A stretch of DNA of 64,000 nucleotides from Methanoregula formicica SMSP (GTDB lineage: Archaea > Halobacteriota > Methanomicrobia > Methanomicrobiales > Methanospirillaceae). Each line of letters opens with the position of its first letter. The first letter of the stretch is position 1. Of this stretch, positions 24,451-57,812 are shown one piece after another. The stretch is taken from assembly GCF_000327485.1 (NCBI RefSeq), contig NC_019943.1:2046001-2110000 (forward strand), read 5' to 3'. The position numbers and the translations under genes were made by a program. Under the pieces are notes generated by a model that worked only from the letters and a program-made list of their open reading frames with translations, was not told where the DNA came from and ran no database searches.

Positions 24451-24471
24451 CTTTTCTTGCGAGGCGGGCCC

Positions 24472-24491
24472 CCGCCCGGAAACCCGGGCGG
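24472..24491 (+). terminator. GC-rich hairpin after the membrane protein gene
   Basis: CCGCCCGG and CCGGGCGG form a perfect 8-bp stem around AAAC, about 20 bases after the stop codon. No T-tract follows, so it may be an RNA stability element rather than a terminator. Confidence 0.4.
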
Positions 24492-24627
24492 TGCGGGGTC
24501 TGCTGCATACTCCCCCTCCCCATCCGGGCCCCTGCCCGTTTTGTCATACTCTGACAATCACGACGAAGAATGTTCTCCTGCTGAATGGCAGAGCTTCCAT
24601 ACTGTCACCATACATCCGTTGTCATAG

Positions 24628-24935
24628 GGAGGTGTCAGGTATACCCCCCCGGATGCATGCAGGGGGGTATGATCGATGTGAAACGCGGAGGGGGGAGGGG
24701 GTATGCCGGATACCCCCCTGTCCACTTCCAGGATGTACACACTGCTGCACACAGGATCCTTCACGGTTTTCTATGGAGTCTCCGTCGGGCAACGGTTGCA
24801 CGTATCTACCCAAAAATGATATGGGGGGGTCTGTTCCGGCCAAATGTGGGGAGGGGTATCCCGGACACCTCCCCATCATGGGGCAGGGGGTATACGACAG
24901 ATCCCGTGCATGAAACCAGCCCGTATCCCCCGGGG
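24628..24935. repeat. cluster of ATACCCCC/GGGGGTAT inverted repeats between convergent genes
   Basis: This 495-base gene-free stretch (24451-24945) holds at least seven related motifs in both orientations. ATACCCCCC (24641-24649) faces GGGGGGTAT (24662-24670). GGGGGTAT (24697-24704) faces ATACCCCC (24710-24717) around GCCGG. GGGGAGG (24848-24854) faces CCTCCCC (24868-24874). GGGGGTATACG starts at 24886 and CGTATCCCCC at 24922. GGGAGGTGTC near 24628 recurs inverted near 24866. Open frames across it give low-complexity peptides and look non-coding. Function unknown. Confidence 0.75.
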
Positions 24936-24945
24936 TGCGTACCAT

Positions 24946-25881
24946 TCACGGGAAGGAGAGGTCGATCCGTTTCCCGTGCTGCAGGGCAATCTTTGCAATG
25001 GCAAGATCCTGGATGGCAAGCCCCGTGGAATCGAAGACCGTGACTGCGTTTCTGTCCCTGCGTTTCTTCCTTCCGATTACGACCTCACCGATTGTGCCGG
25101 AAATATCCTGCATGAAAAAGAGCCCGTTCCTGATCGGCACGTTGATCTCCCCGGAATGGACTGCCTGGGCAGGGTCGTCCACGAAGACCTGCGCCCTCAC
25201 TAAGATGGCTGGATCCAACTCCTGTTTGCCGGGAGCATCGGCACCGATCGCGTTGATGTGCATACCCTCATGGACCCATTCGTTTCTGATGAGCGGAGTC
25301 CTCGAAGGTGTTGTGGTAACAAGCACATCGCAGTCACACACCCGTTCGAGGCTCTTGACTGTGCAGTCAAATTCCCTGAACCGTTCCGCGAACCGTTCTG
25401 CATGGGTGGGATCGCGGCTCCAGACCTTTAGCTGCCGGATCTTCAGTTCCCGCGCGGTTGCCAGGACCTGCGCTTCCGCCTGCCTCCCGGTCCCCACAAC
25501 CCCGAGGACAACCTCGGGTTTCGGGAACAGGTATTTTGCGGCCACGGCACCGGCCGAACCGGTGCGCATATCGGTAAGACGCGTTGCATTGAGGATGGCA
25601 ACCGGACGACCGGTATCAATGTCGAGGATGATTGTTAAAGCCATCACGGTCGGGAGGCCATTTTCCGGATTTCCCGGGTGTACGTTCACAATCTTCACGC
25701 CGGCAATCGAAAGCGAGGGAAGATAGGCCGGCATGGTTCGGAAATCGCCTGTGGGAAGGGTCACGTAGACCTTGGGGGGCATCTGAACCTCCCCTCTTCC
25801 ATGGTCCGCAAACGCCGCTTCAACAGCCCGGTTGACGAGCCCGATATCCAGATCCTGATCGGTATCGGTGAGGTACTCCAT
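24946..25881 (-). CDS. ornithine cyclodeaminase/mu-crystallin family dehydrogenase
   Basis: A 311-residue NAD(P)-dependent protein of the OCD/mu-crystallin family, which includes archaeal alanine dehydrogenase and ornithine cyclodeaminase. The Rossmann motif VLGVVGTGRQAEAQ is mid-protein, preceded by ILNATRLTDMRTGSAGAVAAKYL. MPAYLPSLSIAGVKIVNVHPGNP is the substrate/subunit segment, and the late HINAIGADAPGKQEL matches the family. From sequence alone I cannot choose between alanine dehydrogenase, ornithine cyclodeaminase and a ketimine reductase. The start is ATG 25881. Confidence 0.88.
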   Translation of the reverse strand: MEYLTDTDQDLDIGLVNRAVEAAFADHGRGEVQMPPKVYVTLPTGDFRTMPAYLPSLSIAGVKIVNVHPGNPENGLPTVMALTIILDIDTGRPVAILNATRLTDMRTGSAGAVAAKYLFPKPEVVLGVVGTGRQAEAQVLATARELKIRQLKVWSRDPTHAERFAERFREFDCTVKSLERVCDCDVLVTTTPSRTPLIRNEWVHEGMHINAIGADAPGKQELDPAILVRAQVFVDDPAQAVHSGEINVPIRNGLFFMQDISGTIGEVVIGRKKRRDRNAVTVFDSTGLAIQDLAIAKIALQHGKRIDLSFP

Positions 25882-52591: not shown

Positions 52592-55128
52592 ATTACTTAC
52601 ACTTACCAGGGCGCGCAGTACATCATATTTCAATCCTTGTTCTCGTGGATGTTTCGCTCGAAGAAAAAACAGGGGTGGATCAACCTCATGAATCGGGGTT
52701 TCAATCCTTGTTCTCGTGGATGTTTCGCTCGAAGGACATTTACCCAATGGCTGATTGGCAGTTAGCGATGTTTCAATCCTTGTTCTCGTGGATGTTTCGC
52801 TCGAAGTATTTACGGCGTTCTGTTCAATCTTAACCGCCGGATAGGGTTTCAATCCTTGTTCTCGTGGATGTTTCGCTCGAAGGTTACGGGGGAGAAGGGA
52901 CTGCATTGCGGTCTTACATGTTTCAATCCTTGTTCTCGTGGATGTTTCGCTCGAAGACCGAGCAGGGCAAACGCTCGCTGGCGGTTCTTGAGTTTCAATC
53001 CTTGTTCTCGTGGATGTTTCGCTCGAAGCAGGGGTAACTTTGCTGGGTTCAAGCAGGTGTGTCCGAGTTTCAATCCTTGTTCTCGTGGATGTTTCGCTCG
53101 AAGTCCTATAACATCGCACGCAACAGTGGTCTTTCGGGGTTTCAATCCTTGTTCTCGTGGATGTTTCGCTCGAAGCAAGAGGCGGAAAACAAACACCTCA
53201 CGGTTGACGGGTTTCAATCCTTGTTCTCGTGGATGTTTCGCTCGAAGGGAATTATCTTGTATTCAGTCATTCGCACGATGGCTGTTTCAATCCTTGTTCT
53301 CGTGGATGTTTCGCTCGAAGCCTATAGGTAATATAGGTAATTGTCGCCCGGCTTGGTTTCAATCCTTGTTCTCGTGGATGTTTCGCTCGAAGAAACTCTC
53401 ATTTTGGGCTTCTTTTCCAAGTGGTTTGTTTCAATCCTTGTTCTCGTGGATGTTTCGCTCGAAGTGTTTTATCCGAGCGGTGCGCCCGGGTCAAAAGGGT
53501 TTCAATCCTTGTTCTCGTGGATGTTTCGCTCGAAGGGTACTCGAAATCATTGATAGTCGTAGTGTTTGGGTTTCAATCCTTGTTCTCGTGGATGTTTCGC
53601 TCGAAGCAGAATTGAATGAACAGATTGCAGAACTCGAAGCAAAAGTTTCAATCCTTGTTCTCGTGGATGTTTCGCTCGAAGCCAGAATATAGTATTATGC
53701 ATTTGTAGCCGGTGAGTTTCAATCCTTGTTCTCGTGGATGTTTCGCTCGAAGCATCGAGAAGGACGGCGGGTTGCTCGTCAAGGGTGGTTTCAATCCTTG
53801 TTCTCGTGGATGTTTCGCTCGAAGTTTACAGTATTGCGGGTGTATTATTCATCTGCACGATTTGTTTCAATCCTTGTTCTCGTGGATGTTTCGCTCGAAG
53901 AGACGAAATGGAAAAAAAGAAATTGACGCACTGCGGTTTCAATCCTTGTTCTCGTGGATGTTTCGCTCGAAGGTACATATTAATCATCTCAGACCATGTT
54001 CCTTATCAGTTTCAATCCTTGTTCTCGTGGATGTTTCGCTCGAAGTCGTCTGGCTTACGCTCTTTCTTTTCAGCCATCTTTGTTTCAATCCTTGTTCTCG
54101 TGGATGTTTCGCTCGAAGAGGGTATGATACCTTACAACAATCTTTTTGTGAGGTGGTTTCAATCCTTGTTCTCGTGGATGTTTCGCTCGAAGGTCCACCT
54201 GGTAAGCGGTATTTTAGTGGTTTTTGGTTTCAATCCTTGTTCTCGTGGATGTTTCGCTCGAAGTGCGGCAAGGTCTATGTTGAAATGAAATTCGTTGTTG
54301 TTTCAATCCTTGTTCTCGTGGATGTTTCGCTCGAAGGTAATGGTTCCAAATTCCGATCTGGTGTTATCAAGTTTCAATCCTTGTTCTCGTGGATGTTTCG
54401 CTCGAAGGGAAAGCGTCACATCGTCCACTACCGCAGATCCGGCGGTTTCAATCCTTGTTCTCGTGGATGTTTCGCTCGAAGTACGGAAATTCTGCGACAT
54501 TTTCCCACCGTCGGGAGTTTCAATCCTTGTTCTCGTGGATGTTTCGCTCGAAGCGTGTGGGTTGTCGAGGGGTGATACCGTGGTTTTCAGTTTCAATCCT
54601 TGTTCTCGTGGATGTTTCGCTCGAAGGGGGATCAATGGAGACTATACTATACCGGAAATGAGTTTCAATCCTTGTTCTCGTGGATGTTTCGCTCGAAGAT
54701 ACACCGGCTGGTTATGGCACGGGCGCATGGTGGTTTCAATCCTTGTTCTCGTGGATGTTTCGCTCGAAGTTTAATGTCTGTTGAACCAACATCGGAACCA
54801 ACAGGTTTCAATCCTTGTTCTCGTGGATGTTTCGCTCGAAGGGAATGAACACAGAGAGTGTTTCATCAATGTGGAGTTTCAATCCTTGTTCTCGTGGATG
54901 TTTCGCTCGAAGTCTGGCATAACCGCTTGATACTCTTCATAGAGTTGTTTCAATCCTTGTTCTCGTGGATGTTTCGCTCGAAGATGATTGTAGGATCGAA
55001 GGCGAAGAAGAAGATGAATGTTTCAATCCTTGTTCTCGTGGATGTTTCGCTCGAAGTGCTTCTTTTCTTGTGTAGAACACTTTTCCTATGAGTTTCAATC
55101 CTTGTTCTCGTGGATGTTTCGCTCGAAG

Positions 55129-55313
55129 GTGAAACCATGTTAGCACCCGATACAATCAAACGAAGTTTCAATCCTTGTTCTCGTGGATGTTTCGCTCGAA
55201 GCAAGCTTTGCTACAATCTAATGTTGTCTTGGGGTATATTGTTTCAATCCTTGTTCTCGTGGATGTTTCGCTCGAAGGTGAAACCATGTTAGCACCCGAT
55301 ACAATCAAACGAA
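55129..55313 (-). repeat. identical spacer present twice in the array
   Basis: The 36-base spacers at 55129-55164 and 55278-55313 (both starting GTGAAACCATG and ending CAAACGAA) are identical. They are separated by two repeats and one different spacer (55202-55240). All other spacers I compared by eye look distinct. Confidence 0.95.
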
Positions 55314-57812
55314 GTTTCAATCCTTGTTCTCGTGGATGTTTCGCTCGAAGCCGTTCCTGTTCTCTTAAGAGGGGAGGGGAGGGGGGTTTCAATCCTTGTT
55401 CTCGTGGATGTTTCGCTCGAAGTGACAATCGGTTGGGTATATCCATCATTCCTGATGTTTCAATCCTTGTTCTCGTGGATGTTTCGCTCGAAGTGTGGGG
55501 TCCCAATCGGGCCCTTCTTTCGTCCACGGTTTCAATCCTTGTTCTCGTGGATGTTTCGCTCGAAGCCAGCCGGAGGCGATCATGGCTCCGTTGATCGCAC
55601 CAGTTTCAATCCTTGTTCTCGTGGATGTTTCGCTCGAAGAAACGCCCGGAACGGTCAAGGCGCCCGTTAAGAAAAAGTTTCAATCCTTGTTCTCGTGGAT
55701 GTTTCGCTCGAAGCATACTTACCGCGGGGGAACGAGGCACATTCCTGGAGTTTCAATCCTTGTTCTCGTGGATGTTTCGCTCGAAGAAGTAGTTCTCGGA
55801 TCTCCACATCTCGTAAGTTTGTTTCAATCCTTGTTCTCGTGGATGTTTCGCTCGAAGTATTTCTTAATTAATAATATACAATTAGGCTCAAAGTTTCAAT
55901 CCTTGTTCTCGTGGATGTTTCGCTCGAAGTGAATATTTCTTTTCAGGCAGTCTTTACCATTTTGTTTCAATCCTTGTTCTCGTGGATGTTTCGCTCGAAG
56001 GGAACGGGTGTTCCTGTAGTAGTTGGAATAGGTGTGTTTCAATCCTTGTTCTCGTGGATGTTTCGCTCGAAGGTATTGCGGGAAACTGATCACGGCCCGG
56101 GATGAATGTTTCAATCCTTGTTCTCGTGGATGTTTCGCTCGAAGCTCTCTTCCGGAGTACTTGCATAACATAACATAACAGTTTCAATCCTTGTTCTCGT
56201 GGATGTTTCGCTCGAAGCCGGAACTCTTTCATGTACGGCAGATAATCACGGGTTTCAATCCTTGTTCTCGTGGATGTTTCGCTCGAAGAAGTCGAAGAAT
56301 TTAAGATACTGTCACATGATTGGTTTCAATCCTTGTTCTCGTGGATGTTTCGCTCGAAGGCATCTCCTCAAAAATCCTCTACGCGTGGAGAGGGTTTCAA
56401 TCCTTGTTCTCGTGGATGTTTCGCTCGAAGGCAAAGTGCGCGGAATTTTGCATGCGGTTTGTCAAGGGTTTCAATCCTTGTTCTCGTGGATGTTTCGCTC
56501 GAAGGTATTAGGGGATGCATGGCACAACCAGTTTAATCCGCAGTTTCAATCCTTGTTCTCGTGGATGTTTCGCTCGAAGTCATATCAATGTCATATTGGT
56601 ATGCCCGGTGGTGGTTTCAATCCTTGTTCTCGTGGATGTTTCGCTCGAAGTATCAGGTTTTCTGTTGCTTGTGTGGCATGGCCCTGTTTCAATCCTTGTT
56701 CTCGTGGATGTTTCGCTCGAAGTGGACTGGTCACGACACCGCATTCACATTCCAATAGTTTCAATCCTTGTTCTCGTGGATGTTTCGCTCGAAGCCAACA
56801 GGTCAGTTCTACAACCATGCGTTATCATAGGTTTCAATCCTTGTTCTCGTGGATGTTTCGCTCGAAGTTATCCTACCAGTGACCACGGAACCCGAGATAT
56901 GGAGTTTCAATCCTTGTTCTCGTGGATGTTTCGCTCGAAGCAGGTGGTAGTTGAACGACCCTTATACCTGATCGAGTTTCAATCCTTGTTCTCGTGGATG
57001 TTTCGCTCGAAGACTGATCACGGGACGATCTATTACGAGCGGAGAGGTTTCAATCCTTGTTCTCGTGGATGTTTCGCTCGAAGCCAGTACAAAGGATACC
57101 CTGGTGGATACGCTTGGCTGAGTTTCAATCCTTGTTCTCGTGGATGTTTCGCTCGAAGGTACTTCTGCACCGTCACACTGGATCGGGCGCTGGAGTTTCA
57201 ATCCTTGTTCTCGTGGATGTTTCGCTCGAAGGATACCACATTTTAGATCGAACTAATACTTTCTTCGTTTCAATCCTTGTTCTCGTGGATGTTTCGCTCG
57301 AAGTGTTGAGAATCCATCGTCACCGAATGACCAATTGGTTTCAATCCTTGTTCTCGTGGATGTTTCGCTCGAAGTTCGCCCGGGACAACACCGGCAAGCC
57401 TGGTGGATGGTTTCAATCCTTGTTCTCGTGGATGTTTCGCTCGAAGGGTGGAGTATATACCTGGACAGAGATTGGCAGCCCATGTTTCAATCCTTGTTCT
57501 CGTGGATGTTTCGCTCGAAGCCAGACCCAGATATTCGGATCTCCTGATGAGGTATCAGGTTTCAATCCTTGTTCTCGTGGATGTTTCGCTCGAAGTGGAG
57601 CCTACAAGTCCACTTCGCACACCTGAGCAGAGTTTCAATCCTTGTTCTCGTGGATGTTTCGCTCGAAGAAGTCTGCTATTCCATTACCATTGGCAGCATA
57701 TATGTTTCAATCCTTGTTCTCGTGGATGTTTCGCTCGAAGAATAGTCTCTAATGAGAAGTAACTAAAATCAAAGAGTTTCAATCCTTGTTCTCGTGGATG
57801 TTTCGCTCGAAG

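Follow-up and report, generated by a model that had tools for sequence, protein, structure and literature searches.

Most of what is known about dispersed mosaic repeats comes from bacteria. BOX/ERIC-type intergenic repeats consist of modular blocks in a fixed order, as does the family described here; the two are likened by description only, and we know of no sequence common to both. PATE elements are archaeal MITEs. The REP sequences and BIMEs, which occur with RAYT transposases, are portrayed in passages of PMC2817692 and PMC3733652 as extragenic, regularly spaced palindromic units with motifs between them that are dispersed and lineage-specific, and a passage of the former puts REP sequences at usually more than 100 copies per genome.

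The locus analysed here lies in a 64-kb window (the whole stretch of DNA under study, G000:C1:2046001-2110000) of a genome, G000, of 2,820,858 bases in a single contig. Like REP/BIME sequences as characterised in those passages, the family to which it belongs consists of intergenic mosaics in which palindromic units recur at regular spacing, is dispersed and is lineage-specific. Unlike them, its palindromes lack complementary mutations (110 unique pairs, with one weak position), its G-run half-sites carry no GTAG/CGTC tags of the kind those passages describe, it occupies about ten places in G000, and no Y1/RAYT gene is present in G000, G025, G031, G021 or G062. Membership of the REP class was dropped because Y1 transposase is lacking in these five genomes. 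With the archaeal MITEs treated in part of PMC10969869, the family shares short, noncoding units that contain inverted repeats and are present or absent between relatives. It differs from that partial description in that inverted pairs are found throughout the unit rather than just at its ends (the outermost units of the copies are palindromic pairs, and so are inner ones), that a 4-bp match is all that is seen at one clean junction, and that a Y1_Tnp search identified no transposase in those five genomes. Archaeal origin recognition boxes, as outlined in sections of PMC4010727 and PMC3528665, likewise contain arrayed G-strings and G-rich inverted repeats; unlike those boxes, the family lacks the TTCCAnnnGAAA dyad by a profile test and is not tied to cdc6. 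The cluster is one copy of a dispersed noncoding intergenic repeat family of Methanoregula, and this family is a genus-specific form of a known class, the dispersed mosaic intergenic repeats. No earlier report of it was found among the open-licence papers searched, and Methanoregula is not mentioned in at least the main text of the 2025 REP survey PMC12306157.

Architecture and distribution of the family

An earlier note on this DNA had described a G-run motif occurring at least seven times, in both orientations, within about 310 bases. The cluster is real and non-random: exact ATACCCCC/GGGGGTAT occurs five times in the 64-kb window against an expected 1.61 (sd 1.33), a count reached by 2 of 100 shuffles, and all five copies lie within 24641-24893. 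The figure of seven holds for degenerate forms only, as the exact 8-mer is found five times and the 7-mer GGGGTAT/ATACCCC six times. The perfect hairpin at 24697-24717 (I19 of the inverted-repeat list) is present, as is the repeated element in inverted form (GGGAGGTGTC at 24627-24636 and its reverse complement at 24864-24873, pair I1), and the overlapping ORFs of the cluster are mechanical, in line with the view that no credible protein is encoded. The cluster does sit in the 310 bases first marked out, but the true unit is larger, at 24463-24947, and takes in one more inverted pair, a degenerate one, at 24495-24516.

This entire inserted unit of 485 bp, delimited to within a few bases by family extent and by comparison with the empty site of G014, has no counterpart between the same gene pair in that genome; its features are all given on the plus strand. 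HP0, the degenerate outer pair GGGGT-N9-ACTCCCCC (24495-24516), was read directly and agrees in location with HP0 elsewhere in the family. HP1 (24627-24650) is an inverted half-site pair, GGGAGGT-N9-ACCCCCC, recognised from the sequence, the inverted-repeat list and the family alignment, and is followed by SS1 (24660-24688), a single half-site CAGGGGGGTATGATCGATGTGAAACGC whose orientation is constant among aligned copies. HP2 (24690-24719), an inverted pair containing the perfect hairpin, was recovered from the inverted-repeat list, the alignment and a genome-wide pattern search. The family alignment further defines a central linker (24720-24822), with a block TACACACTGCTGCAC aligning to TACGCATTATTGCAC of other copies and a TCCGNCGGA-like block, and the single half-site SS2, GGGGGGGTCTGTTCCGGCC (24823-24842). 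HP3, GGGGAGGGGT-N9-ACCTCCCC (24848-24874), is an inverted pair found in both the inverted-repeat list and the alignment, and SS3, CAGGGGGTATACG (24884-24899), is a single half-site identified from the sequence and the alignment. HP4, expected 3' of SS3, is lost or degenerate; the window copy therefore retains HP1 to SS3 and has degenerate ends. At its left end (24464-24489) the inserted unit also has a GC-rich inverted repeat, distinct from these features, that was not seen by eye in the other copies. Elsewhere in the window there is a CRISPR array at 52698-57812, and all 71 Rfam gathering matches in the window are to CRISPR-DR7 on the minus strand.

The order common to the copies, taken from an alignment of 30 that includes one rearranged copy (G0_914) and several cut off at contig ends, is HP0 - linker - HP1 - SS1 - HP2 - linker - SS2 - HP3 - SS3 - HP4. 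The family unit thus combines, as a mosaic of set order, inverted pairs GGGGGGT-N9-ACCCCCC with single GGGGGGTMTGATC half-sites; one half-site, GGGGGGT, is used both in the inverted pairs, whose centre is 9 bp, and singly, where its orientation is constant. All 17 matches to GGGGGTN{5,13}ACCCCC in the whole of G000 fall inside family loci, 15 of them with N9, one with N8 and one with N7; among inverted GGGGGGT...ACCCCCC pairs with a centre of up to 30 bases in the fetched loci, the centre is exactly 9 in 116 of 183.

The suggestion that the cluster might belong to a repeat family, to be checked by recurrence in the genome, proved correct. BLAST of 24460-24960 located about ten places in G000 (321k, 795k, 842k, 903k, 914k, 1066k, 1532k, 2070k, which is the window copy, 2186k and 2485k) and, in a search of 60 relatives, about ten or more each in G025 and G031; identity per piece is mostly 66-91%. 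At E ≤ 10 some match, mostly short and weak, occurs in all 60 genomes, and only places whose sequence was read are counted. A profile of 94 positions built from 29 sequences (R1) matches 17 of 39 genus genomes at E ≤ 0.01. Under E ≤ 0.001 and stricter filters it matches 7 of 150 genomes of the order, all Methanoregula and hence one of 35 genera, with no match in the 34 other genera tested. The exact pattern GGGGGGTMTGATCGNTTTGAAA occurs in 13 stretches of an 84,980-species collection, every one from Methanoregula, and is absent from the viral contigs searched; distant BLAST gave no family match in plasmids. On a 29-genome tree of the ornithine cyclodeaminase-family protein encoded alongside, presence of the element takes 4 changes against 9.7-9.9 with shuffled labels, and none of 500 shuffles was as low. 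The distance of copies from the origin looks uneven by eye in two sister genomes and not in G000.

Filled and empty sites

The element is a discrete unit that some genomes have, and others lack, between one and the same pair of genes. The gene tree groups G014 with G000 at the window locus. There, in G014, a 125-aa gene and the ornithine cyclodeaminase-family gene lie only a few tens of bases apart and the element is absent; by the best joint between the two genomes, 24463-24947 is the part of the window that G014 lacks here, and R1 has no match anywhere in this draft of about 810 contigs. A loss from G014 is no less possible than a gain by G000, because G025 (68.6 and 48.1 bits) and G017 (49.9 bits) also have a copy at this site, oriented as in G000, and weak matches occur there in G061 and G019 (24.4 and 26.5 bits). 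A second such site precedes porG, where G000, G031 and G025 have a copy; a short intergenic region without one is found in G018, G021, G062, G061, G060, G019, G030 and G029, and a longer intergenic region, also without a copy, in G017. Target-site comparison at the one clean junction gave the 4-bp match between flanks that have diverged.

Several sites have been occupied since before species split. Two copies of G000 (L012 and L013) are 0.858 identical to each other and L012 is 0.831 identical to its G031 ortholog (L020); as the copies within the genome are the closer pair, copies also exchange or duplicate within a genome. At about 3286-3420 of L012, a short membrane-protein-like ORF enters the element as though truncated by it. 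Around 3000 of L038 (G025 C4:63.1k), a copy ends abruptly inside HP3 at sequence resembling, by eye, a transposase helix-turn-helix.

A putative protein-binding array and its rivals

We put the probability at roughly 55% that the family is a BIME-like Methanoregula repeat (mosaic, extragenic and palindrome-rich) that acts as a DNA protein-binding array. The unit would work as double-stranded DNA, with a putative multimeric protein bound at its half-sites; this protein may either organise the nucleoid or chromosome or once have spread the element. Copies would arise by rare duplication or insertion and would afterwards pass down by vertical descent, with partial homogenisation within each lineage. 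Taken from sequence comparison, this is the best-supported inference from recurrence, filled and empty sites, N9 geometry, absent covariation, half-site constraint relative to spacers and clustering on the tree. Of the earlier proposal of a nucleoid or replication protein site, what survives is the general form, a putative site for a DNA-binding protein.

In orthologous copies the half-sites diverge at half the rate of the spacers, with 45 differences in 718 positions against 387 in 2880 (Fisher p 2.7e-8) over 11 alignments, six from five G000/G031 sites and five from G018/G021. Flanks, which include genes, differ at 500 of 7175 positions, and half-sites are not slower than these (0.063 vs 0.070, p 0.54), so the constraint is shown only relative to spacers. 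One pair, L115/L120, reverses the trend (half-site 0.029 vs spacer 0.019), and gene conversion between copies could mimic such constraint. Pairing of the inverted halves was assessed in 110 unique N9 pairs chosen by GGGT-N9-ACCC, a choice that builds in the 9-bp spacing, for which the genome-wide count of 15 in 17 is the less selected measure. The halves pair as expected if independent (position 4, 40 vs 37.9; position 6, 27 vs 45.8), save for a weak excess at inner position 5 (78 vs 69.6, p 0.003), and a first covariation count on 83 pairs agrees in supporting none.

These counts bear directly on a structured noncoding RNA, an option raised in the earlier note together with conserved pairing as a check on it. 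The many potential stems, and small linker-side stems that are complementary by eye in several copies, would suit such an RNA, but the pairing of inverted halves is not conserved, RNAalifold on 26 copies returned +0.54 as the covariation term, only 1 of 18 pairs being changed on both sides, and Rfam gave no family match at gathering and only two weak matches, far below threshold, at E ≤ 5, making this reading very improbable. A G-quadruplex or hairpin bidirectional terminator, also proposed at the outset, would fit the position of the window copy between convergent genes and is judged slightly less probable still. G4 motifs on the G-rich strand are depleted (3 of 26 copies against 11.5 in shuffles; 4 of 26 against 1.5 on the other strand). 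Of the ten G000 copies, as judged from their ORF lists and Pfam, none but the window copy can be placed between convergent genes: divergent genes flank L011, L012 and L013, same-strand genes flank L009 and L015 and, less surely, L010, L014 and L017, and L016 was left unplaced. This varied gene context disfavours a terminator role. The weakest candidate, and a scarcely credible one, is a cluster of Orc1/Cdc6 origin recognition boxes away from the origin, as a titration or secondary origin site. It was prompted by G018, G021 and G062, where an element immediately precedes the second cdc6 gene, and passages of PMC4010727 attribute G-strings and G-rich inverted repeats to haloarchaeal boxes. It was dropped because most genus genomes have cdc6-2, mostly without an element upstream, and because the profile test failed: on a 32-box profile whose lowest box scores 26.2 bits, the best score in 26 elements averages -4.15 (shuffles -7.16). 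The 32 origin-box-like sites themselves, with a consensus near TTCCACNNGAAAYAAAGGGGT, occur in 12 of 13 loci upstream of cdc6-1 (L198, L186-L197; one for each of 13 Methanoregula genomes, with no box in the G011 stretch), and this upstream region is apparently the main origin of the genus.

The strongest competitor, possible and still clearly behind the binding array, is a selfish non-autonomous element, MITE- or REP-like and without a host role, whose transposition would depend on an as yet unrecognised transposase acting in trans. The dispersal of the copies and their presence or absence at two sites are consistent with this, as is the sharing of 14-mers, which is greater within than between most genomes (0.088 against at most 0.037 for G034; 0.068 against at most 0.027 for G025); G000 runs counter to that excess, with 0.018 within and 0.022 with its sister G031. 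Against mobility stand the Y1_Tnp search, in which the transposase was present in 5 of 39 genus genomes and in none of the five named above, the clean junction, at which no target-site duplication extends beyond the 4-bp match, the sites that predate species splits, and the slower change of half-sites than of spacers. ORFs between neighbouring units in G018 and G060, inspected by eye for an autonomous element, included no obvious transposase.

Other arrays in the genus and their significance

Three R1-negative genomes (G034, G006 and G011) have intergenic arrays of inverted G/C runs of their own, with other centres and spacers, and G005, G014 and G016 have only one or two pattern matches each. 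The other centre lengths, as in G034, weaken the case for a single fixed protein geometry. In two cases an array of the G034 or G011 type adjoins the same gene as one of the G000 type, at 45 and 54 bp (G025 L029 and G034 L226) and at 41 and 19 bp (G000 L017 and G011 L235); other pairs lie further from their common gene, for example at 121 and 712 bp or 214 and 1392 bp. Comparison of the flanks of all loci gave 65 cross-genome pairs, the geometry not being consistent in all, and about six shared places against about three by a rough chance estimate. As this overlap is only modestly above chance, positional conservation is a lead only. A shared linker motif was sought between G034-type and G000-type arrays and rejected, being no better than shuffles in G000, G025, G031, G018 and G021; it is better than shuffles in G034 and partly in G006, G062 and G011. 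Two further motifs were noted: a short dispersed G/C-run motif, GGGGGTTGAGACCCCCATACCCCC, recurs in G034, G006 and G014 (e.g., L201 and L217), and a short GC-rich palindrome of the GCCGCCGCCCC...GGGGCGCCCC...GCGGCGG type recurs intergenically, by eye, in several Methanoregula (L199, L217 and others).

It is conceivable, and in our estimate unlikely, that chromosomal sites across the genus keep their place while the array sequence is repeatedly replaced and homogenised, lineage-specific arrays co-evolving with a fast-evolving DNA-binding protein that may organise or partition the chromosome. The support so far comes from the similarly designed arrays, of different sequence, of the three R1-negative genomes and the two same-gene cases; the modest overlap counts against it, as does the fact that G034-type and G000-type arrays are without demonstrated sequence homology. 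Such turnover, if true, would resemble that of centromere repeats in eukaryotes.

The family also gives reason for caution, in that a G/C-rich hairpin beside a methanogen gene is not necessarily a terminator or an RNA. As a largely vertical methanogen family whose half-sites follow a defined grammar and for which no transposase has been recognised, it may serve as bait for an archaeal sequence-specific nucleoid or mobility protein.
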